From: a virus
Length of the DNA stretch: 21,874 bases
Direction: 5' to 3' (one strand)
IMG/VR virus record: IMGVR_UViG_3300006802_000670
Coordinates: 1-21,874 of that record
Numbering within the stretch: the stretch's first letter is position 1; every line of letters begins with the position of its first letter. Below, one piece after another: positions 9,703 to 18,388 of the stretch. The notes below the pieces were generated by a model that did no database searches, was not told the DNA's origin, and saw nothing but the letters and a program-made list of their open reading frames with translations. The translations under genes and the position numbers were made by a program.

Positions 9703-10046
9703 CAGCTTTCACTCCTCACGTAGAGGTCAAGCTCCATCCCTTCCGTGCGTCCGATTGGCCGGATGTCGCGAATGTCCCAATCTTTTGACCGAAATCGAAT
9801 TTTATCGGTGACACTCAAGCCCGCCCAATATTCACGCAATTCCAGCACAATGACGGCGCTGCCGATGACTTGCTGTGAGGCGAACCGTTCGCCGCCGCGC
9901 TGTGGCACTTCCCGACACTAGACCGAATATGCCGTTGGTGTAAATGTTTCTATTTCCTGTCCGCTACCATCTTGCGCGACGCTCCGCAATAAGAACGTCG
10001 CTTGTTGATCGAAGTCCGCAATGTGTCTAGTGGCATTGGCCAGCAT
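9702..10046 (-). CDS. Head-tail joining protein with in-frame amber codon 43
   Basis: A 114-codon gene starting at a TAATG overlap with the connector stop and ending in a TGATG overlap with the gp10-like gene, with one TAG at 9918-9920. Before it: ATRHIADFDQQATFLLRSVA and a TFTPTAYSV end. After it in the same frame: CREVPQRGGERFASQQV, LELREYWAGLSVTDKIRF, KDWDIRDIRPIGRTEG, MELDLYVRSES. Together these are the Phage_H_T_join pattern (head closure, PF05521), where a conserved Trp follows the 'A-V' just before the 'P--G-E---AQQ' region. The TAG sits exactly where that Trp (TGG) is expected. A restart at a GTG (9908) would give only 68 residues. It may be a nonsense mutation, an assembly or sequencing error, or suppressed readthrough. 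Confidence 0.8.
9918..9920 (-). other. In-frame amber (TAG) inside the head-tail joining gene
   Basis: Codon 43 counted from the ATG at 10046. The frame is open on both sides and both halves match one family. A single G-to-A change on the coding strand (TGG to TAG) would explain it. TAG ends the portal, protease and cysteine-rich genes in the same window, so general reassignment of TAG is unlikely. Confidence 0.8.
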
Positions 10047-10666
10047 TACAGCAAGTCCACGCGATACCGGGCGATGAATGATTCTAAATCAATTGGCAAA
10101 CTCTGGGCGCTGGTTCCGACAATGATCGGCGTCCGATGCTGGTACATGTGCGACATGAGCAACTTGACCGCCACAATCAACGGTGCAGGCACATCAGAAG
10201 CCGCGTCCCCATACCCGGCTTTGAATCGCACGCGAACCGTATTGATGGAGTCCAGCGTCTCGGGCCATGAATAGCCGTCGACGGGTAAGATCCAGCCCGG
10301 CTGTGATGCCGTATCAACCACATAATTGGCCACCGAGATCGTTTGCTCAACCTGCGCCGGATCATCGTATTTGATGCTGACAATCGACTGAAGCGGCGGC
10401 AATGGAATGCGTATCTCGTTCGCGGGAAACGTATCAAGGACTAATTCCCATGTGGCCGTAACGAGTTGCCGACCAAGTTCGCCATCCTTCCCGTCGAGCC
10501 ATTCACGCGCCGCCTTAATATAGGCCGTCAGCAAACTATCGTCTGGATGCGTGGCCGGTGATCCGGTGGCCGTGAGGCGTAATTGTGCCCGCGCTTCGGC
10601 TAGTGTCATCGGCTCCACGGCAGGCGGTGAGATGAGGCGCAAATTCTGCTTGATTCCATCCAGCAT
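10046..10666 (-). CDS. Head-tail connector, gp6/phiE125 gp8-like
   Basis: 206 residues. The N-terminus (LRLISPPAVEPMTLAEARAQ, then DDSLLTAYIKAAREWLDGKD) and the later ITLPLPPLQSI-type element (here IRIPLPPLQSIVSIKYDD) are typical of the phiE125 gp8/HK97 gp6 adaptor family. Its members form a ring under the portal. The C-terminal helix region (PAPLIVAVKLLMSHMYQHR) is the conserved end of the fold. GGAGGGG lies about nine bases before the ATG at 10666, so translation is independent of the repeat gene upstream. It is separated from the major capsid gene by a ~5.7 kb island, whereas in most relatives it follows directly. Confidence 0.9.
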   Translation of the reverse strand: MLDGIKQNLRLISPPAVEPMTLAEARAQLRLTATGSPATHPDDSLLTAYIKAAREWLDGKDGELGRQLVTATWELVLDTFPANEIRIPLPPLQSIVSIKYDDPAQVEQTISVANYVVDTASQPGWILPVDGYSWPETLDSINTVRVRFKAGYGDAASDVPAPLIVAVKLLMSHMYQHRTPIIVGTSAQSLPIDLESFIARYRVDLL

Positions 10667-10669
10667 AGC

Positions 10670-11665
10670 TTATCCCCTCCGGCGCAGACCCCTGAACGCG
10701 AGACGGCGCACGCCTGCAAAGACGGCGCGAGCCGGTTGCCGTGCCGCCTGTCTCAAGGCTCCATGAATATTCGCAGGCCGTGGAGGCTGTCCGCCCACCG
10801 CAACGAGGTCATCATCCTGCAATGTTTGTGACAGCGTGCAGAGAATTTCTTGCTCTGATGATCCGGTAGCTATCAGGCTGTCATTGCCGAGTATTGCATT
10901 GACAATCGCCTCAATCGTGGCCTGTCCCGCACTCGCCAGACTGTCATTATCGAGCGTGCTGGAGAGATCGCCCTGCACGGAGACTGCGCCGTCACATAGA
11001 ACGCCGTCATTATTCAGGATGGCGGTGAGTTGCGCGTCGACATCCGCAATCGCGTCGGCGCTGAGTATATCGTTGTCGAGCGTGACAGATAGCGAGGCTG
11101 AAATGGTATTCCCTACCGTCCCCTGTGCGTCGACGGTATCGTTGCCCGTTGTTGCATTGACGGAAGCGGAGATGTCTACCGTGCCGGATGCGCTAATGGT
11201 TTCGTTCGCCTCTGTTTGCGTGAGCGTGCCTTGAACGTCGACCATTACAGCGGCGCTGACTGAATCATCCTGTCCGGTTTGTGCGAGAGCGGCTTGCACA
11301 TCGACGGCGGCGCTCGCTGTCGCGGCATCATTCTCAAGGGTTTGATTGAGCGATGCGGAGATGCCACCCGTTGAGGCTTGCGCGTCAACCGTATCATTGT
11401 CGAGCGTATTAGAGAGCGATGCGGAGACATCCACCGTGACTTGCCCGCTGATCGAATCATCCCCAAGCGTGACGGATGCCGCCGCCTGCACATCAAGAGT
11501 CGCAAGGGCCGTAATGCTATCGTCTGCCAGCGTTGGCGTGGCGACGGCGGCAACGTCAGCCTGGGCTTGCCCTGAAAGGCTGTCGTTGTCGAGCGTTTGC
11601 GACACGGACGCAGTGATGCCGCCCGCGCTTTCAAGATTGAGTTGGAATAGTGTAAGTAAGCTCAC
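10670..11665 (-). CDS. Tandem-repeat phage protein with arginine-rich C-terminus
   Basis: 331 residues from a GTG start that overlaps the previous stop (GTGA). Residues 1-16 are a short lead. Residues 17-292 are 13 tandem units of 21-23 residues with the consensus A-x-L-x-x-T-L-x-N-D-S-[IL]-S-A-x4-D-V-x. The last 39 residues carry about ten arginines (RQAARQPARAVFAG, then RRLAFRGLRRRG). The repeat body is acidic, with very few Lys or Arg, so charge is strongly split. Phages of several groups encode proteins with similar 'L--TL-D-TL-A-G' repeats of unknown function. A rod-like beta-repeat decoration or neck fibre is plausible, with the basic tail contacting DNA or another subunit, but this is inference. 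It lies immediately before the connector gene. Confidence 0.8.
   Translation of the reverse strand: MSLLTLFQLNLESAGGITASVSQTLDNDSLSGQAQADVAAVATPTLADDSITALATLDVQAAASVTLGDDSISGQVTVDVSASLSNTLDNDTVDAQASTGGISASLNQTLENDAATASAAVDVQAALAQTGQDDSVSAAVMVDVQGTLTQTEANETISASGTVDISASVNATTGNDTVDAQGTVGNTISASLSVTLDNDILSADAIADVDAQLTAILNNDGVLCDGAVSVQGDLSSTLDNDSLASAGQATIEAIVNAILGNDSLIATGSSEQEILCTLSQTLQDDDLVAVGGQPPRPANIHGALRQAARQPARAVFAGVRRLAFRGLRRRG
10790..11617 (-). repeat. Thirteen tandem 63-69 bp coding repeats
   Basis: The repeat block of the 331-residue protein. Units are mostly 63 bases, some 66 or 69, always whole codons. Conserved codons cover the TL-x-N/D-D core, and GAGCG/CGACAA-type words recur at the same phase, while the remaining bases differ considerably between units. 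This suggests old duplication followed by divergence under protein-level selection, not recent expansion. Confidence 0.8.
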
Positions 11666-12222
11666 CCGACCCCCAACAATGGCAAGCGGTTCGAACTTGG
11701 CGCTGCCGTCGCAATGTTATATGTGCCCGTCAATTCTGCCGCAAAGACGCGTTCTTCAAGGGTATCACCCGCCATCGACTTCGAGATTGTCCAACTGATT
11801 CTCGCAATGGCTCCATCCCAGACTGATTTGTCTGCCGAGGTATCCACTCCCGTAAAGGCAAGGGCTCCCGATGTTGTATCATTCGTCGTGATCGAACTGG
11901 CAATGGTTCGCGCATCGGTTAAAGGCGTCGATCCATCAGATCGAAAGATTTGCACAACGAGGCTACTCCATGTGTTGACCTGCGAGCCCGTTTGCCATCC
12001 ATAGCGGAGATTGACCAGGAGCGTGAGCATCGTGCCAAAATCAGACGGCATATCGCTGAGTGCGTAATCCGCCGTGCCCGTATGGTTGGTGTTGCTGGTA
12101 TCATGTACGTCCGTTGACAAGGAGGCCGACGCAATCACTTCAAGGACTGGCGGCGTGCCCGTCTCAGCGGTATTGGAAAAGTTGCTCCCAGTTCCAAAGG
12201 CGAGTGTCGGCAGGCTTGCCAT
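11662..12222 (-). CDS. Beta-rich phage protein of unknown function
   Basis: 186 residues with no cysteines or long helices. It starts right after the TAG of the cysteine-rich gene (TAG then ATG) and ends in a GTGA overlap with the repeat protein gene. The chain is Thr/Ser/Asp-rich with alternating hydrophobic stretches: ADYALSDMPSDFGTM, LTLLVNLRYGWQTGSQV, SSLVVQIFRSDGSTPLTDA, then ARISWTISKSMAGDTL and a closing LTGTYNIATAAPS. This reads as a single jelly-roll or immunoglobulin-like sandwich typical of virion surface proteins. I recognise no named family. Context suggests a minor head or neck decoration protein made together with the repeat protein. Confidence 0.65.
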   Translation of the reverse strand: MASLPTLAFGTGSNFSNTAETGTPPVLEVIASASLSTDVHDTSNTNHTGTADYALSDMPSDFGTMLTLLVNLRYGWQTGSQVNTWSSLVVQIFRSDGSTPLTDARTIASSITTNDTTSGALAFTGVDTSADKSVWDGAIARISWTISKSMAGDTLEERVFAAELTGTYNIATAAPSSNRLPLLGVG

Positions 12223-12498
12223 CTAGTGACAGGCTCCACAGGTTGCGCACGTTTCGCCGTGGCGCGGGAGATCCGCGCATCCCAGACCAGGCCATAGCCT
12301 GTCCATCATGGGTTTTACCGTCGCAATCCAACGCGGGTCTTGATAGACCGCGTTCCAGTTGCCATGCTCGCGCCGCAAGCCGCAGGCAATCGAGCGGCCT
12401 TCCACGGTCCCTACCTCGAAGAAGGGACAGAGCGTGCCGTCAACCCAACAACAATGATTATCCGGCGTGCCCTGGCACGGTGTTGTTTCGGCGCTCAT
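12223..12498 (-). CDS. Small cysteine-rich, probable metal-binding protein
   Basis: 91 residues with nine cysteines and four histidines. Cysteines occur in TPCQG, NHCCWVDGTLCPFFEVG, IACGLRREHG and GLGCADL, and the chain ends with a close cluster, ETCATCGACH, of the CxxCxxCH type. No signal peptide is present, so a zinc or other metal site in the cytoplasm or in the particle is more likely than disulfides. The core phrase CGLRRE...GNWNAVYQDPRW resembles small hypothetical proteins I associate with phage head-tail regions; no function is known to me. It is coupled on both sides: its ATG overlaps the previous stop (ATGA) and its TAG is followed at once by the next ATG. Confidence 0.7.
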   Translation of the reverse strand: MSAETTPCQGTPDNHCCWVDGTLCPFFEVGTVEGRSIACGLRREHGNWNAVYQDPRWIATVKPMMDRLWPGLGCADLPRHGETCATCGACH

Positions 12499-13349
12499 TT
12501 ATATACCACGTTTAAGACTACATCCCCCGCTGATACGCTCCCCGTCCCATCGTTGGCCGACGTAATACAGAAGCCGATACCAGTCCCAAAGGCTACGCCA
12601 GGATCGAGTTGAATATTCGTACCCGCGCCGGTTGTTTGCCCAGGCACAATAAATGTCGCGATGATCGAGGCATTGCAGGTCGGAGATCCAGACGTATTAT
12701 AGAGATGCACGAAGCGGGCGCTCGCGCTCACATTCGAGGCAATAATTTGATAGACCTGCCCCGCCGATGATTTCACATTCGTTGCATTGGTACTGGCCGC
12801 TGCGACGGTGCGCGAAATGGAGGTGCCTCCACTGGTTGCAGGCTGTCGGGAGACGAGCCACGGTGTTGTATTAGCCGTATTTCCAGGCTGTACCGTCCAG
12901 GTCCCAGATTGCGCCGCCTGTGTCGCGAACGTGCCCGCGTTGGTGACGTTGTGGGATGGGACGCTTGACAGCGCCACATTCAATTCATTCGAGGCGTTGA
13001 CATTCGCCCCGCGCCCATTGCCCGCCGCGTCCCGAATTTGCCCGTACAAGACGCCTTGCGAGGACATGCGGAGATTGCCAAACTGATTTTCCGTGACCGT
13101 TTGCGGGCCGGTGTCATCGTACTGGCCGACAATCTGCGTCGCCGTTATCCCTGTTCCTGCGCTGTTCAATCCATTCGTCGCTTCAGTTCCGCCAATGCAC
13201 GGCGCAGAATTCGAGGTCGCCGGATCTTCGCAATAGATTTGGACGGCTGTAGGCTTCTGCTGCGCGTCGGCCCACGGCAGACTCATGAGTCCTGCCAGGA
13301 CTACCAAACCCAGAATAATCATCCGCGTGCGTGTCATGCGATACCTCAT
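12495..13349 (-). CDS. Secreted phage structural-type protein
   Basis: 284 residues from the ATG at 13349 (ATGA overlap; AGGG five bases upstream). The N-terminus is a clear signal peptide: MRYRMTRTRMIILG, hydrophobic LVVLAGLMSLPW, probable cleavage after ADA. The rest is Ser/Thr/Asn/Gly-rich. The middle (QSGTWTVQPGNTANTTPWLV) and the C-terminal ~120 residues (VYQIIASNVSASARFVHLYN, then a GVAFGTGIGFCIT region ending VVLNVVYK) match a beta domain found in many phage structural proteins from environmental genomes. Four cysteines occur in the mature chain. The same kind of C-terminal domain is usually cytoplasmic and virion-bound, so the signal peptide is odd. Attachment of the protein to the host envelope or late decoration of particles are possible roles. 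Confidence 0.75.
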   Translation of the reverse strand: MRYRMTRTRMIILGLVVLAGLMSLPWADAQQKPTAVQIYCEDPATSNSAPCIGGTEATNGLNSAGTGITATQIVGQYDDTGPQTVTENQFGNLRMSSQGVLYGQIRDAAGNGRGANVNASNELNVALSSVPSHNVTNAGTFATQAAQSGTWTVQPGNTANTTPWLVSRQPATSGGTSISRTVAAASTNATNVKSSAGQVYQIIASNVSASARFVHLYNTSGSPTCNASIIATFIVPGQTTGAGTNIQLDPGVAFGTGIGFCITSANDGTGSVSAGDVVLNVVYK

Positions 13350-13837
13350 TGCATCCCTAAAATGGTGGCAATCACATTCGTCGCTGACCCGAGCGTGATC
13401 GAAACGCAGCGTGACCGGAAGTAGAGGAATGGCCCAGCACTCTGTTGATAGACAACAGCCCCATCCGCGTTCGCGCCAAACTCTCCGGCGTTGCTATGTT
13501 CTAAGATCGTCTGATAGTTCGTGCCGTCGAGACTCCCCTCCAGCACCACGTTCCATGCGGTTGGCGTCGCCGTGGTCCCCTTCACTTGCAACCCAAACCG
13601 CGTGCAGGGACGAGTCGAGACATTGACCTGCGTGCCATTGGCGGCGACGGTAAAGGTATCCTGCCGCGTCGCGAAGGCGAGCCCCACCGGCAACGGGTTC
13701 GCCCGTTCAATATCACCATCGTTGGTATTATCCGGCCCATGAATGAGCTTGATGCGCTGATATTTGGCCCCGCCAATTTCATCAGATGCGATAATGTCGC
13801 CGCCAGTTCCAGCATTCAGTGTTGTGTTGTCAGCCAT
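13346..13837 (-). CDS. Small phage structural-type protein
   Basis: 163 residues. The opening MADNTTLNAGTGGDIIASDE followed by IGGAKYQRIKLIHGPDN and an ANPLPVGLA element is a recurrent signature of small phage proteins encoded next to capsid and tail genes, probably virion components. The rest forms a beta sandwich (FTVAANGTQVNVSTRPCTRF, WNVVLEGSLDGTNYQTILEH) like a discoidin or fibre-head fold. AAGGGG lies six bases upstream of the ATG at 13837, and the gene ends in an ATGA overlap with the secreted protein gene. The ANPLPV segment is often followed by a fibre-type domain, so exposure on the particle is plausible. Confidence 0.75.
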   Translation of the reverse strand: MADNTTLNAGTGGDIIASDEIGGAKYQRIKLIHGPDNTNDGDIERANPLPVGLAFATRQDTFTVAANGTQVNVSTRPCTRFGLQVKGTTATPTAWNVVLEGSLDGTNYQTILEHSNAGEFGANADGAVVYQQSAGPFLYFRSRCVSITLGSATNVIATILGMQ

Positions 13838-13847
13838 TGCTTGCCCC

Positions 13848-14255
13848 TTATGGGTTGCCAGCCGTCAAGGTGAAGGTTGTGACGGTCACTTGTTGCGATG
13901 TCGCAATGCTGGTGTTATCCAATTCCATGACGCCGCCTCCACCCGTCGCGGTAATATTCCCCTGAATGTGCGTGGTAAATGGAGAAGCGGCATTCTTGAC
14001 GCGGAAATATCCCGCTGTGCCGTTGGTGATGCCGGTGCTCTGCCAGGTTCCAGACTTGGCTTTTGACGCCGCCGACGCCGCCGCCATCCAATCGGACGGC
14101 AAGGTCATCTCAACCAGTTTTGTGCCGCTGTCGGCATCAGTAATATTGGTTGGTTCCGTTCCGGTGAAGATTTGCAACAAAGGCGTTGTGCCAATGGTTG
14201 ACTCCACGGCATCGAGCCGCGCATTACGTACCGCCACTGAGAATTTCATTGCCAT
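13848..14255 (-). CDS. Small conserved phage structural-type protein
   Basis: 135 residues. The pattern FSVAVRNARLDAVESTIGTT, PLLQIFTGTEP, TLPSDWMAAASAASKAKSGT, then GYFRVKNAA, LDNTSIATSQQVTV and TFTLTAGNP is that of a family I know from many siphoviruses, encoded between head and neck genes and presumed to be a virion component. Experimental function is not known to me. GGAGGG lies seven bases before the ATG at 14255, and a three-base gap separates it from the transferase gene upstream. It marks the switch in the island from enzyme genes to structural-type genes. Confidence 0.75.
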   Translation of the reverse strand: MAMKFSVAVRNARLDAVESTIGTTPLLQIFTGTEPTNITDADSGTKLVEMTLPSDWMAAASAASKAKSGTWQSTGITNGTAGYFRVKNAASPFTTHIQGNITATGGGGVMELDNTSIATSQQVTVTTFTLTAGNP

Positions 14256-14258
14256 GAT

Positions 14259-15086
14259 TCAGCCCTCCATTGCCGTGTGAATATGCTCCCATGCGAATCC
14301 GCTTGATAATTCGTCCAGCCTCCACTGCGTATAGGCGAGCCAGTGCGCCCATGCGTGCCGATCCGGCTGCACGCGGTCAGTGCTCAGTTGATGGCTTGTC
14401 ACATCCCAGGCCATTGCGCCCTCATCCAGCGTGACGGTAGGCACGCCAGCAAGGACGGATTCAACGGATGACGTTGAGTTGAATGCCACGGCGAACGAGG
14501 CGCCTGCCAAGTCTTCCGCAAGAGTCCCGTTGCTTTCCTCTGCGCCGTCCGGCGTGGTCAGGTGGCCGAGTTTTCGACAGAGCGGATGCGGACGGAAGAC
14601 CACATCATAGCCCAAGGTTCGCAGCATGTTCGTTTGCGCTTGCGCCCATGACTGAAAACCGCTTGGCAGGCCATAGAGCGAGAAATCACCGGGAACTTGC
14701 CCGAGAAGTAACGCATAGCCTTCTGTCTGGATGCGCCACGGTTCGATGAAGTCCGCATAAAGCGCCTTCCATCGTTGCCCGCCATCCTCGACCTTCGGAT
14801 AGCGCCCGCGACGCTGCAAGCCGTTCCAGCCGCATGAGGTATAGGTCAACCGCGTGAGATCGCGTCCGCCAATATGTCCCGCCTCCATGACCAGAAGGCG
14901 CGGCGTCGCCTCTTTGACGCGAGGATGCTTAAAGGGAGAGCCCCAAATCACGGCAAAATCGCATGGTGCTGGTTCATCGAATCCGGCCCACGATACCTCG
15001 ATGCCGTGCCGCTCCAAGCCGGACTTCATGGCCGCGCCATGCGTTTTCTGATGCTCAAAATTGTTGACATGGATGACGGCTTTCAT
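14259..15086 (-). CDS. Glycosyl- or glycerophosphotransferase-like protein
   Basis: 275 residues from the ATG at 15086, which overlaps the methyltransferase stop as ATGA; a longer start would intrude 100 bases into that gene. The N-terminus MKAVIHVNNFEHQKTHG is a Rossmann-like strand and loop. LLLGQVPGD (126-134), a VVFRPHP motif (around 162-168) and FNSTSSVESVLAGVPTVTLD (202-221) match the capsule-synthesis/CDP-glycerol-transferase type of GT-B enzyme, where RPHP and the S/T-S-S-VE-VL-G-P element bind the nucleotide donor. The substrate cannot be told. Together with the two preceding genes it could modify a capsid or tail protein, DNA, or host surface polysaccharide. Confidence 0.7.
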   Translation of the reverse strand: MKAVIHVNNFEHQKTHGAAMKSGLERHGIEVSWAGFDEPAPCDFAVIWGSPFKHPRVKEATPRLLVMEAGHIGGRDLTRLTYTSCGWNGLQRRGRYPKVEDGGQRWKALYADFIEPWRIQTEGYALLLGQVPGDFSLYGLPSGFQSWAQAQTNMLRTLGYDVVFRPHPLCRKLGHLTTPDGAEESNGTLAEDLAGASFAVAFNSTSSVESVLAGVPTVTLDEGAMAWDVTSHQLSTDRVQPDRHAWAHWLAYTQWRLDELSSGFAWEHIHTAMEG

Positions 15087-15646
15087 CGTTCGGCCACCCA
15101 GCCAGGCGACGCCGGATAGTGCCGCACGCCACCGATGCGCGTCACAGTAAATGGGGCGAACCATGTTTTGAAGCAGGCGTCCCATTCTTGATGGGAACGG
15201 ATGTTGATATGCAGCTCTGTGCCGTCAGGCAATCGGGACGGGTTATTATTCGCCGTGATCAGAATGGTGCGCCTGGCCACCCGCGCCAATTCCCGACAAA
15301 TCACTTCATCATCGCCTTGCGGGATGTGCTCGATGACATCGAACAGCGAGACAACATCGAAGCTGGCATCTTCGAACGGGAGTTGATGTGCCTGGGCATA
15401 GATGACGCGGCCTTCACGTAAGAGCGCCGGGACTACTTCCACCCCCATGACTGGCGCAAATCCTATGCGTTCGGCTTCGTCCAGCATTTCCCCGCGTCCA
15501 CATCCGACATCGAGATAGGAGCCGCGACGCAGCTTGCCGAGGTCATGGATTGCATCAATCTTGCGTCCCTCCCCCATCCGATAGTTTGGCAAGGCATAGG
15601 CCGCTTCATATTTCTGCTGTTCGGCTATGCGGGCACTGTCGAGCAT
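15083..15646 (-). CDS. Class I SAM-dependent methyltransferase
   Basis: 187 residues. Motif I is SYLDVGCGRGEML (43-55), the acidic motif II is MGVEVVP (67-73), and LPFEDASFDVVSLFDVIEHI (89-108) covers the methyltransf_11-type motifs III/IV. No target-recognition domain or DPPY/NPPY motif is visible, so a DNA base methylase is unlikely; small molecules, sugars or proteins are more probable. AGGAGG (15651-15656) lies four bases before the ATG at 15646. The gene overlaps the preceding gene by 22 bases and ends with ATGA into the transferase gene, so the three make one coupled cassette. Methylation of a sugar added by its neighbours is a natural hypothesis. Confidence 0.85.
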   Translation of the reverse strand: MLDSARIAEQQKYEAAYALPNYRMGEGRKIDAIHDLGKLRRGSYLDVGCGRGEMLDEAERIGFAPVMGVEVVPALLREGRVIYAQAHQLPFEDASFDVVSLFDVIEHIPQGDDEVICRELARVARRTILITANNNPSRLPDGTELHINIRSHQEWDACFKTWFAPFTVTRIGGVRHYPASPGWVAER

Positions 15647-16257
15647 TTCGCCTCCTCAAGTGACAGCATGGGAAAGCAGCGCAAGGCCGAGCCCGGCGTG
15701 CAATTGACAATCCGAACGCCTGGCGGAAGCTGCGTGGCGGCCCTGTCGAAGTGGGCAATGAATTGCTGATAATTGGCGGCGTTCATCAATTGCGGCGGAT
15801 GATCGCCAAAGAAGTGGCGCTTCGTGGTCGCCTGCATATCGAATCCGACAAGAAGAATCTCTTTTGCACCGAGGAGGATCGCGAGATTGATCGCTTGGAA
15901 GCCTGAGTTGCCGCCGTAATGAATGATGGACGGGTTCACGGAAAAGCCTTCCTGATCCTGCCCGCGAATGATTCGAAGGTCATATTGTGCGGCCGCCTTG
16001 CGCTTGTCGTTGCCGTTTGGATCATGGCTTGACCATTTCTCCCCGGCAAAGAATGTCACGCCGTGATGTACGTCCCACCAGGCCGCGTCGCAGGCATAGA
16101 GGATATTCGCCCAAGGAAAGAGTGTATAGGCATCGTTGACGGCAATGGTTTTGATGCCGAAGCATTGCCAGGCGACGGCTTGCGACAAGGACGGACCAGT
16201 CGCCGCGACGATGCAGCGTTCCCAGCCTTTGCGCGGTTGTATCGTTTCCAGGTTCAT
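15625..16257 (-). CDS. MptE/DUF115-like protein, possible sugar transferase
   Basis: 210 residues. The Rossmann-type start IVAATGPSLSQAVAW (16-30), TIAVNDAYTLFPWANILYAC (37-56), GGNSGFQAINLAILLGAKEI (115-134) followed by LLVGFDM, and HFFGDHPP (148-155) follow the pattern of the 6-hydroxymethylpterin pyrophosphokinase MptE-like/DUF115 family. That family is often found in flagellin-glycosylation and polysaccharide loci and is structurally related to GT42 sialyltransferases. The G-P-S-L loop probably binds a nucleotide or nucleotide sugar. The ATG at 16257 overlaps the micro-ORF stop as ATGA. Six cysteines are present but no signal peptide. The exact reaction is unknown. Confidence 0.65.
   Translation of the reverse strand: MNLETIQPRKGWERCIVAATGPSLSQAVAWQCFGIKTIAVNDAYTLFPWANILYACDAAWWDVHHGVTFFAGEKWSSHDPNGNDKRKAAAQYDLRIIRGQDQEGFSVNPSIIHYGGNSGFQAINLAILLGAKEILLVGFDMQATTKRHFFGDHPPQLMNAANYQQFIAHFDRAATQLPPGVRIVNCTPGSALRCFPMLSLEEAKCSTVPA
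15651..15656 (-). promoter_or_regulatory. Consensus ribosome binding site of the methyltransferase gene
   Basis: The minus strand reads AGGAGG four bases before the ATG at 15646, inside the end of the preceding gene. It supports this start and suggests that the methyltransferase is translated independently despite the 22-base overlap. Confidence 0.7.
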
Positions 16258-16328
16258 TTGTTTTCAGGAGCAGGGCCCCGGCTTCGATCAGCCGGAGCCC
16301 GCCTCTTGCCTTTGCGTTTCTTCGCCAT
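16254..16328 (-). CDS. Putative 24-residue basic micro-protein
   Basis: A 24-codon frame between the capsid gene and the MptE-like gene. It has a GGAG ribosome site three to four bases before the ATG at 16328, nine bases after the capsid stop, and its TGA overlaps the next ATG (ATGA). The product begins MAKKRKGKRR and then reads APADRSRGPAPENK, so it is very basic. It fills the only gap in this part of the operon and keeps the coupling pattern of its neighbours. A frame this short can be open by chance, and a strong hairpin covers half of it, so coding is uncertain. A nucleic-acid or scaffold-binding peptide, or a leader that couples translation, are possible roles. Confidence 0.45.
   Translation of the reverse strand: MAKKRKGKRRAPADRSRGPAPENK
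16273..16300 (-). promoter_or_regulatory. Strong RNA hairpin after the major capsid gene
   Basis: The transcript can form an 11-pair stem, GGGCUCCGGCU with AGCCGGGGCCC, around the six-base loop GAUCGA. In the minus-strand RNA the sixth-from-loop position is a U-G wobble; in plus-strand RNA the same position would be a C-A mismatch. It begins 38 bases after the capsid stop. No U-run follows, so it is not a classic intrinsic terminator. It could protect the capsid message from 3' decay or reduce expression of the island. Confidence 0.55.
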
Positions 16329-16337
16329 CCGCTCCGA

Positions 16338-17636
16338 TTAGGTTGTGCGAAGGAACTTGGCCGCGTCATTGTTCAGCACAATGCCGCCCTCGCGGCGTCG
16401 CACGTAGAACTTGACATAGCCCACCGAGGAGACTTCATCCCGGGTGATCCGTAAGCCGACTCGATCCACCAGGACATAGGCTTCCATCCAATTGCCGAAG
16501 CCAATCGGGAAATTGTTCGTGCCGATGTCCGGCATTTGTTCCCAAGTGGCCACCGGATAGCCAAGCAGCGAATCCGGCTGGCCTGCTTGTAGACCAGGAG
16601 CCCAGAGATATTGATTCTGTCCATCTTTCAGCTTGCGAACCGCTCCGGTGGTCAGGCTGTTCATAATCCACTTGGCCCCCATCCGATAGCTCGCATTGAG
16701 CGTATAGATGAGATCCATCAGGTAATCCGCGCCCACGACATTGCCAGTGGTCGGAGACACGCCGGACGGTGACGCCACGTACTGATAGGCCGCCGCGGCC
16801 CTGAGCGGGCTCGCTTCGTCTGCCGTCAATACCGGCGTGGTGTTCAACATGCCGGTTGGCTTGTTGGTTCCGTTGCCACTGATGACCGCCGAGCCTTCCT
16901 GCTTGGCGAATGAGCGGGCCACTTTCCCAGTCAGCCAATCGCTCACGTTGAAGAAGATGTCATCCAGTGACCATTCCGTCACCTGCGGATAGGCATACAG
17001 TTCGCCATGTGTCGGCGTCACTTCACGGAGTTTCGGCGTCAATGTCGCGCTCCGCGTGCCGGTTTCTCCGACCCAGCCCGACGTTTCCCCGCCGATATCA
17101 ACAAGCTCCTTGTAATCGGAACTTCCAGACTGCACGACTTTTACAGTTTGGCGAACTGGTGAGAGTTTCGTCTCTAGTACGGAAATCATGCGGCTGATTT
17201 CCTCGGGCACGGCATAGCCGCCGCCTGAAGGCGTGCCGATGGTGATGTCTTTCTGTTCCATCCGTTGCCGCTCAATATCCTTGAGCTTTTGAGACACGGC
17301 GGGATTCTCCCCGCGTGCGCGGACCCATTGCTCAAAGACTTCCCGATGTTCCTGCGCCCGCTTCTCCTGCGGACTCTTGCCGGGAGACTTGGCGCTGGCT
17401 TCCAGCATTTCGAGCCGTTCGCGCTGGAAGTCGATTTCCTTCTGTAAGGCGTCTTTTTTCTGTACGGAGGCAGACAAGTCCGCCTCGATGCGTGTCAGCT
17501 TTTCGCCTAATTCCGCCGCGCCCGCCTTGTCGCCCGCTTCCAGCTTGGCTAGGCGTGCATCATTCGTCTTTTTGTATTCCGACCAGGACCGCCCCACTTT
17601 CTCAATTTCGTCTTTGACTTCTAAAAATGAAGACAT
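16338..17636 (-). CDS. Major capsid protein, HK97 fold
   Basis: 432 residues from the ATG at 17636, chosen because AAAGGAG (17645-17651) lies eight bases upstream. Residues 1-~105 are a highly charged coiled coil (EVKDEIEKVGRSWSEYKKTN, EADLSASVQKKDALQKEI) that corresponds to the scaffolding delta domain removed by the protease. The mature part starts near GTPSGGGYAVPEEI (about 135-147). SSDYKELVDIGGETSGWVGE, then PTHGELYAYPQVTEWSLDDI and FAKQEGSAVISGNGTNKPTG are core signatures of the HK97 capsid family. It ends EGGIVLNNDAAKFLRTT. The gene overlaps the protease gene by 16 bases, and a micro-ORF and hairpin follow it. Confidence 0.95.
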   Translation of the reverse strand: MSSFLEVKDEIEKVGRSWSEYKKTNDARLAKLEAGDKAGAAELGEKLTRIEADLSASVQKKDALQKEIDFQRERLEMLEASAKSPGKSPQEKRAQEHREVFEQWVRARGENPAVSQKLKDIERQRMEQKDITIGTPSGGGYAVPEEISRMISVLETKLSPVRQTVKVVQSGSSDYKELVDIGGETSGWVGETGTRSATLTPKLREVTPTHGELYAYPQVTEWSLDDIFFNVSDWLTGKVARSFAKQEGSAVISGNGTNKPTGMLNTTPVLTADEASPLRAAAAYQYVASPSGVSPTTGNVVGADYLMDLIYTLNASYRMGAKWIMNSLTTGAVRKLKDGQNQYLWAPGLQAGQPDSLLGYPVATWEQMPDIGTNNFPIGFGNWMEAYVLVDRVGLRITRDEVSSVGYVKFYVRRREGGIVLNNDAAKFLRTT

Positions 17637-18388
17637 TGCAACATCTCCTTTAGGTCGCGCCAATCTGAGTCCTCAGCGGCGCTGTGCTGCTCAGCGTGGA
17701 ATGCCTTAACGCTGTGCAAAAGTTCAGTTTCCTCTGTGTCGGCAACGTCGCGCTGCCGCCTGTCTTGTGTTCCAGCGTCGCGCAGGAACTTGGATTTGAA
17801 AGCGGAAATAGCCCGCTGGCTATCTCGACGCGACAGCCCAGCATCGCGCAGGGTGCCTTCCAGATCGCGCCATTGTTCGAAGCCCGCCTGTTTGACGGCT
17901 GTGACGAAGGCTTCCGCATTCGCCGGGAATGTCACCAGCGAGACTTCCCAGAGGCGAATCTCTGTGAGATGGCGGAAGGTTTCTCCGTCGACCACTTCGT
18001 CATAGGCTCCCACCGTTTCAAAGCCAATTGAGAGCCCGTCCAGTTCTCCGCTTTTCACGCCTTCATAGAGCAATTGCCCTCGATCCGTGTTGAGCGCAAA
18101 CAAGCGGCCCGTCACTTTCAGGCCCTTTCGATTCTCTTCCATGTTCGACCATTGGCCGGGCGGGATAAGGTCTTCAGCGGTCAGGCCCAGGCCGCCATGT
18201 TGCAACAGCATCTTCGGCCATTTCCCTTTGGCCTGCCATGCCTTGAGCGTGGTTGAGAAGGCCCCTCGGTCAATCACATCCCCATAGGAATCGACATTTC
18301 CGAAGACGGCCCCATAACCCGAGAAGGTCCCGCGCTCCGGTTCGGCTTTCACATCGGTCAAGGTGACATGTTTATAATTCACATCCAT
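17621..18388 (-). CDS. HK97-family prohead maturation protease
   Basis: 255 residues. This serine protease (U35 type, assemblin fold) cleaves the capsid delta domain during head maturation. Visible marks are the FSGYGAVFGNVDSYGDVIDR opening, the catalytic His in LLQHGG (His64), the catalytic Ser in DGLSIGF (Ser120) and the RLWEVSLVTFPAN strand (145-157). Residues ~165-255 form a charged, probably helical tail. The ATG at 18388 has GGAGG eight bases upstream and follows the portal stop by two bases. Its stop is TAG (17621-17623), inside the capsid gene start. Confidence 0.95.
   Translation of the reverse strand: MDVNYKHVTLTDVKAEPERGTFSGYGAVFGNVDSYGDVIDRGAFSTTLKAWQAKGKWPKMLLQHGGLGLTAEDLIPPGQWSNMEENRKGLKVTGRLFALNTDRGQLLYEGVKSGELDGLSIGFETVGAYDEVVDGETFRHLTEIRLWEVSLVTFPANAEAFVTAVKQAGFEQWRDLEGTLRDAGLSRRDSQRAISAFKSKFLRDAGTQDRRQRDVADTEETELLHSVKAFHAEQHSAAEDSDWRDLKEMLQCLHF
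17645..17651 (-). promoter_or_regulatory. Ribosome binding site that fixes the major capsid start
   Basis: AAAGGAG on the minus strand, eight bases before the ATG at 17636. It lies within the last codons of the protease gene. It is a strong, well-spaced site, as expected for the most abundant protein, and excludes the upstream start nine codons earlier. Confidence 0.75.

Follow-up and report, generated by a model that had tools for sequence, protein, structure and literature searches.

Layout of the capsid-connector interval

The window analysed here is a stretch of viral DNA of 21,874 nucleotides (IMG/VR record IMGVR_UViG_3300006802_000670, positions 1 to 21,874), and our subject is the island of about 5.7 kb (10670-16328) that lies between its genes for the major capsid protein (MCP) and the gp6-like head-tail connector (Ad1). 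The island comprises ten minus-strand genes: a micro-ORF (ORF, open reading frame), three enzyme genes (module A, ST210-MT187-GT274, 14259-16257) and six further genes (module B, V135-u163-SP284-cys91-u186-REP331, 10670-14255). Module A is a glycan cassette and module B is probably a virion-fibre module, and each of them recurs in this same slot independently of the other.

Family profiles assign the surroundings to an HK97-type head module, which runs on the minus strand in the order TerS-TerL-portal-protease-MCP-island-Ad1; on the tail side, Ad1 is followed on the same strand by Neck1, the tail terminator, the major tail protein, a tail protein, the tape measure and fibre genes. The MCP gene, whose likely start is the ATG at 17636 (preceded by AGGAG), stops at 16338 and Ad1 starts at 10666, which bears out the ten intervening genes, their positions and their single strand as given in the initial annotation. 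Its view that the island is packed into the late operon also held, the genes being joined by ATGA or GTGA overlaps, one 22-nt overlap, or gaps of 0-10 nt. From the capsid side, the junctions are ATGA (micro-ORF/ST210), the 22-nt overlap (ST210/MT187), ATGA (MT187/GT274), a gap of 3 (GT274/V135), a gap of 10 (V135/u163), ATGA or a gap of 8 depending on the start chosen (u163/SP284), ATGA (SP284/cys91), a gap of 0 (cys91/u186), GTGA (u186/REP331) and a gap of 3 (REP331/Ad1). GC content is level throughout the island (0.57-0.58), and a search of the named phages gave no DNA closely related to it. The expectation that the connector closely follows the capsid gene in such phages fits only a minority of this clade: among 53 MCP-anchored relatives whose interval could be read, 14 have one of about 500 bp or less, and in the others it spans 0.7-7.5 kb.

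Table 1. Genes of the island and the two genes that bound it, in positions of the window.
Gene	Coordinates	Strand	Description	Basis
MCP	16338..17663	-	Major capsid protein, upstream anchor	phrog_10, E=3e-69
Micro-ORF	16254..16328	-	24 aa, Lys/Arg-rich, MAKKRKGKRRAPADRSRGPAPENK	Sequence
ST210	15625..16257	-	GT42-like (Cst-II-type) glycosyltransferase, module A	phrog_4603 "alpha-2,3-sialyltransferase", E=1e-41
MT187	15083..15646	-	S-adenosylmethionine (SAM)-dependent methyltransferase (class I), module A	Methyltransf_11, E=5e-14
GT274	14259..15086	-	GT-B enzyme resembling retaining beta-Kdo (3-deoxy-D-manno-oct-2-ulosonic acid) transferases, module A	Fold and profile
V135	13848..14255	-	Small beta-sandwich virion protein (fibre-base/whisker/garland fold), module B	phrog_3758 virion structural, E=2e-28
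u163	13346..13837	-	Beta-rich protein	Relatives
SP284	12495..13349	-	Fibre-type protein with Sec signal peptide, module B	ATG 13337, MTRTRMIILGLVVLAGLMSLPWADA followed by QQK
cys91	12223..12498	-	Cys-rich protein	Directly upstream of u186 at 14/14 related loci
u186	11662..12222	-	N-terminal domain counterpart	14 related loci, 48-62% identity
REP331	10670..11665	-	Repeat protein with basic C-terminus, module B	21-residue period
Ad1	10046..10666	-	gp6-like head-tail connector, downstream anchor	phrog_442, E=6e-25; PF05135 above cut-off

The enzyme genes and where they occur

A 40-sequence profile of the ST210 family matches the structures of the sialyltransferase Cst-II (E=4e-5, profile positions 4-183 of 195), placing ST210 among GT42-like enzymes. 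In a hand alignment whose register is uncertain by one residue, the motif HFFGDH of ST210 lies against the catalytic His region of Cst-II (H188, HYIGH), and within the family His148 is kept in 39/40 and His153 in 31/40 sequences. In the Pfam comparison of the window's proteins, a match to the MptE-like family (DUF115, PF01973) scores 27.8 bits, below the curated cut-off of 34.6. MT187 has a weak match in the PDB to a D-glucose O-methyltransferase (E=2.5e-4). For GT274, no Pfam family lies above its cut-off, but the family profile finds KpsC (E=9e-4), and the AlphaFold2 model (mean predicted local distance difference test, pLDDT, 94) has KpsC as its best Foldseek match (E=1e-9), with WbbB and KrkA next. 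CMP-Kdo transferases (CMP, cytidine monophosphate) make up almost the whole of its 20 best PDB matches, with E values from 1e-9 to 1e-5, so that the model has the beta-Kdo transferase fold. The nucleophile of KpsC, D160, aligns with Asp133 of GT274, in a column that varies within the family. With ST210 resembling Cst-II and GT274 resembling KpsC, WbbB and KrkA, both glycosyltransferases (GTs) resemble users of CMP-activated keto-sugar acids, and their folds suggest that ST210 and GT274 may share the use of such donors. Neither family carries signal peptides (ST210 0/93, GT274 0/31).

Relatives of ST210, fetched irrespective of their position in the genome, are found in the head module in nearly all readable IMG/VR contigs, mostly directly behind the MCP gene. 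The minimal island MCP-ST-MT-GT-Ad1 occupies the slot in four relatives (L261, L272, L274 and L279; related loci are given L numbers throughout). Across 44 intervals with both ST and MCP, the other Pfam-matched genes encode for the most part GTs, methyltransferases and enzymes that modify sugars, including GT2, GT8, GT9, GT-D, FkbM, other methyltransferases, radical SAM, epimerase and aminotransferase. There are exceptions to the head position: the ST homologue of phage P1, pmgO, does not adjoin the capsid gene, and the ST-GT pair of Caulobacter phage CcrSC lies after the tail genes. In CcrSC, a jumbo phage (NC_048048.2, 118481-119897, L347), two genes of the GT274 family come after the GT42-like gene, the group lying between the tail genes and the lysis genes, and all are annotated only as hypothetical or sialyltransferase. 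A single-protein scan of genome contigs returned three loci in metagenome-assembled genomes (MAGs). The head module of L330 (WHTM01000036.1) reads MCP-166-ST-Ad1-MT-GT-HC on a contig binned with a Hyphomicrobiales MAG, and this bin may point to a host of the enzyme cassette.

The fibre-type genes

The AlphaFold2 model of V135 (pLDDT 88) matches solved phage structures of the whisker, garland and fibre-base fold. Its top Foldseek match is 9rkv_A of phage 7-7-1 (E=3.5e-7, template modelling score, TM, 0.78), followed by 9c39_K (Sf14 neck, E=0.002) and 9mt4_K (Bas63 connector, E=0.003). Judged by chain length and copy number, 9rkv_A would be the garland protein of 7-7-1, probably the baseplate protein gp014. 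In 7-7-1 a garland of small homodimeric proteins surrounds the tail fibres (PMC12796354), while in Sf14 whiskers are fixed to the neck adaptor, their genes lying between the portal and capsid genes (PMC11821841). The match of V135 to the fibre I fold of Ralstonia phage GP4 is weak (E=0.087), and in Pfam V135 has no match to PF23140 (GP4 Gp80 fibre I), whereas the slot relatives L010 and L324 do. Direct sequence homology between V135 and the Gp80-like genes found in L010 and L251 was rejected, hhalign being negative with single sequences; its link to Gp80-like genes is therefore positional, plus weakly structural via GP4.

The remaining genes of module B tend to keep company with one another. 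The SP284 family is also present at 16/19 u163 loci, and L307 and L010 have the pair as a fusion; no relative of SP284 was found among solved structures. A direct search with cys91 retrieved no relatives, and these turned up later through u186; the cys91 family (window 12223-12498, L333-L346) shows the pattern CCWVDG..C....GR..CGLRR..GSW..VH.DP. In most relatives u186 is part of a single longer protein with repeats. REP331 has a periodicity of 21 (z=11) with multiples at 42 and 63, periods of 20-23 are seen in the repeat proteins that relatives encode at or close to this site, and a REP gene is near V135 at 51/81 V135 loci. The order MCP-129-119-V135-282-cys91-u186+REP-128-Ad1 in L346 is that of the window, in the same slot and without the enzymes, and in L307 the u163/SP284 fusion and a repeat protein lie between MCP and Ad1, the latter directly before Ad1 and sharing the SLLTLF start. 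Fibre or carbohydrate-active domains also occupy the slot of relatives (Gp80, Laminin_G_3, SASA, F5_F8_type_C and Peptidase_S74).

The N-terminus of SP284, behind a GAGG ribosome site, is a clear Sec signal ending in ADA, with QQK following. Signal peptides were counted not with SignalP but by a simple rule that we devised, which asks for a hydrophobic core, a basic N-region and AXA. It finds them in 28/81 members of the SP284 family, compared with 93/3124 among the remaining genes on the contigs fetched (p=5e-21); the gene next downstream often has one too (+1: 13/25 versus 3/42). The contigs of these loci carry phage hallmark genes. The predicted signal on SP284 does not fit a purely cytoplasmic model of assembly. 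Tentatively, the late operon might make fibre-type proteins for export, to form a coat in the periplasm or on the cell surface or to join the particles at lysis; the literature searched contained no description of an exported use of phage "structural" genes. Sec-signal-like N-termini are present on three fibre-type proteins of the window (12495-13349, 377-1672 and, more weakly, 1-357), and signal-bearing genes adjoin SP284-family genes in runs in L189, L193, L205, L208, L225, L236 and L240.

One system or two

The initial annotation had suspected a particle-decoration system composed of enzymes plus surface proteins. Both kinds of component were recovered: the enzymes are of glycan type (two GT folds and a SAM methyltransferase) and recur immediately behind the capsid gene of dozens of phages, and the fold of V135 has been seen in cryo-electron microscopy maps of phage fibres, whiskers and garlands. 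That they form a single system is not supported by their distribution. We surveyed 52 distinct complete MCP-anchored capsid-connector intervals, chosen without regard to either module. Genes were called "fibre-type" if they gave family hits, showed a period of 20-24 residues or were non-enzyme ORFs of 400 aa or more, so that this class is approximate. Enzymes alone were found in 16 intervals, fibre-type genes alone in 19, both in 2 and neither in 15, an anti-association with Fisher p=0.0025 (uncorrected for phylogeny). One of the two "both" calls, L259, is doubtful, its sole basis being a 403-aa ORF, and p falls to 0.0003 if it is not scored as both. Part of the anti-association is explained by phylogeny, since the enzymes are concentrated in the closest MCP relatives.

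Each module alone occupies the slot, the enzymes in L261, L272, L274 and L279 and the structural genes in L346 and L307, while both together are rare (the window, L010, L251/L252, L324 and L327; of these the window, L010, L251/L252 and L327 are double occupants from outside the survey). Given this split of the intervals, the slot is a cargo hotspot and the window phage a rare double occupant; a fair reading of the data is that two kinds of cargo, placed end to end here, use one and the same insertion slot. Scattered genes without co-occurrence, which the initial annotation had expected if its proposal were wrong, were found by half: both modules keep to the slot, and neither depends on the other. 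Both cargoes are probably concerned with glycans, the enzymes writing them and the fibres carrying lectin-like or carbohydrate-active domains in several relatives.

A short ORF of 24-126 aa lies directly behind the capsid gene in the window (16254-16328), L251 (5341-5643), L283, L307 and L324. The ORFs of relatives in this position have mostly 60-120 aa and in several (L251, L283, L307) end in a similar basic tail; the micro-ORF of the window may be a reduced form of these.

Proposed function and alternatives

On balance we favour the view that the capsid-connector junction of these siphovirus-type phages is a cargo slot, and that the window carries two independent cargoes in series, a virion glycan cassette and a fibre module. 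In the likeliest case, module A decorates a virion protein with a host-derived CMP-activated keto-sugar acid, and module B forms a neck or tail fibre. ST210 would transfer the keto-sugar acid onto the virion protein, GT274 would extend or branch the sugar and MT187 would cap the glycan, the donor being drawn from the CMP-sugar pool of the host, most likely as CMP-Kdo. In the fibre, V135 would be the base or linker, SP284/u163 and u186 would supply beta-rich domains and the 21-residue repeats of REP331 the shaft, with the anchor probably at the neck.

Several observations weigh against these assignments. The catalytic His motif of Cst-II is aligned only approximately (HYIGH against HFFGDH), GT274 has only a remote likeness to Kdo transferases (TM about 0.57, identity 14-16%), and its nucleophile column holds Asp in only 12/31 aligned family members, partly via gap placement. 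Position does not fix the acceptor, since the ST genes of CcrSC and P1 are located elsewhere. Gp77-like adaptors, which would anchor a fibre, are present in L010 and were not recognised in the window, and the closest structural match of V135 sits on the baseplate of 7-7-1, not the neck. Gene order, gene families, folds and the separate recurrence of either module in the slot are shown, whereas the glycan and its donor sugar, the acceptor, the site of the fibre, the order of assembly and export are inferred.

A single co-evolved decoration system, with enzymes dedicated to the six structural proteins that the island encodes, which they would modify, would account for the adjacency and translational coupling of the two halves in the window and for the recurrence of the combination in the slot of L010, L251/L252, L324 and L327; we regard it as quite unlikely, given the anti-association in the 52 intervals and the relatives in which either half occupies the slot alone. 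The enzymes might instead act on the surface polysaccharide of the host, in receptor loss, superinfection exclusion or serotype conversion, or on phage DNA. GT42 and KpsC-type enzymes normally make lipooligosaccharide or capsule, known phage GTs modify DNA and O-antigen (review, PMC12619734), and the ST-GT pair of CcrSC lies between tail and lysis genes. However, the enzymes lack signal peptides, they are placed in the late head operon and coupled to capsid genes, and no base-hypermodification partner genes were identified among the late genes of the fragment, which leaves a target other than the particle rather improbable.

For the product of module B, a tail-tip fibre or a capsid-surface decoration, with only the gene position being unusual, is a possibility that we take seriously while thinking the neck the better candidate. 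The best match of V135 is in an entry for the tail fibre of 7-7-1, where it is probably gp014 of the baseplate garland (PMC12796354), and V135 relatives in other phages are also found near TerL, tail and baseplate genes. The next matches, in contrast, are to the Sf14 neck and the Bas63 connector (PMC11821841), and in L010 and L346 a small protein, GP4 Gp77-like or similar, is encoded directly before the neck or connector gene.

For the glycan cassette, the host is the probable source of the donor. Neither the window nor the sampled relatives encode donor synthesis, NeuB and CMP-sugar synthetase being missing from every one of 50 ST/GT-bearing virus records, many of which are fragments; NeuB is also absent from 50 other records, so its absence does not discriminate. 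CMP-Kdo is favoured because the bacterial MAGs with related loci have CTP_transf_3 in 3/3 and NeuB in 0/3, these being three incomplete genomes only. Nonulosonic acid made by the phage is ruled out as a general donor in the sampled relatives, L345 being the single exception. In this relative of module B, a NeuB/SpsE-type synthase and a DegT-like aminotransferase (L345:1436-2572) are encoded directly upstream of the capsid gene, with cys91-u186-REP downstream; nonulosonic acid in the L345 phage is thus a lead, suggested by its gene content.

Relation to known systems and implications

The gene kinds are already known. The Pseudomonas phages D3 and PAJU2 (Detrevirus) have a GT42-like gene in the head module (orf7 / ORF010), directly behind the capsid gene in D3, and a methyltransferase and a 275-aa protein within the same block; unlike them, the window has a fibre module in the slot, and the methyltransferase of PAJU2 is only weakly similar to MT187. 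The 275-aa protein of PAJU2 was considered as a homologue of GT274, and no homology was detectable. In the head module of Tetraselmis viridis virus S20/SI1, the genes that separate protease/capsid from head closure include two GT42-like genes, GTs and a methyltransferase; this virus lacks module B and has another set of GTs. Among the mycobacteriophages, a review (PMC12619734, citing Freeman et al., 2023) describes glycans on capsid and tail tube subunits; in the literature searched we found no paper on capsid glycosylation with GT42-type genes.

The fold of V135 is like that of the Sf14 neck whiskers gp30/gp31 and the 7-7-1 garland protein gp014. A further likeness is to fibre I gp80 and adaptor gp77 of GP4, with L010 and L324 matching Gp80 and L010 also weakly matching Gp77, while V135 itself has no match to PF23140 and only the weak fold match to GP4 noted above. 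ST210 and GT274 are similar at profile or fold level to Cst-II (GT42) and to KpsC/WbbB/KrkA, both groups using CMP-activated keto-sugar acids, although ST210 is shorter than Cst-II and GT274 has the low identity to KpsC already given.

What is new in its present form is the slot, its two-cargo structure and the proposal of a CMP-activated keto-sugar. Capsid-linked GTs are widespread, with homologues in the model phages D3 and P1, and these GTs have been annotated so far only as hypothetical or "sialyltransferase"; the proposal offers them a concrete chemistry, that of host CMP-activated keto-sugar acids. It also yields a testable rule, by which the capsid-connector gap in this phage group would be a hotspot for glycan-writing enzymes or fibre-type genes, and occasionally for both.

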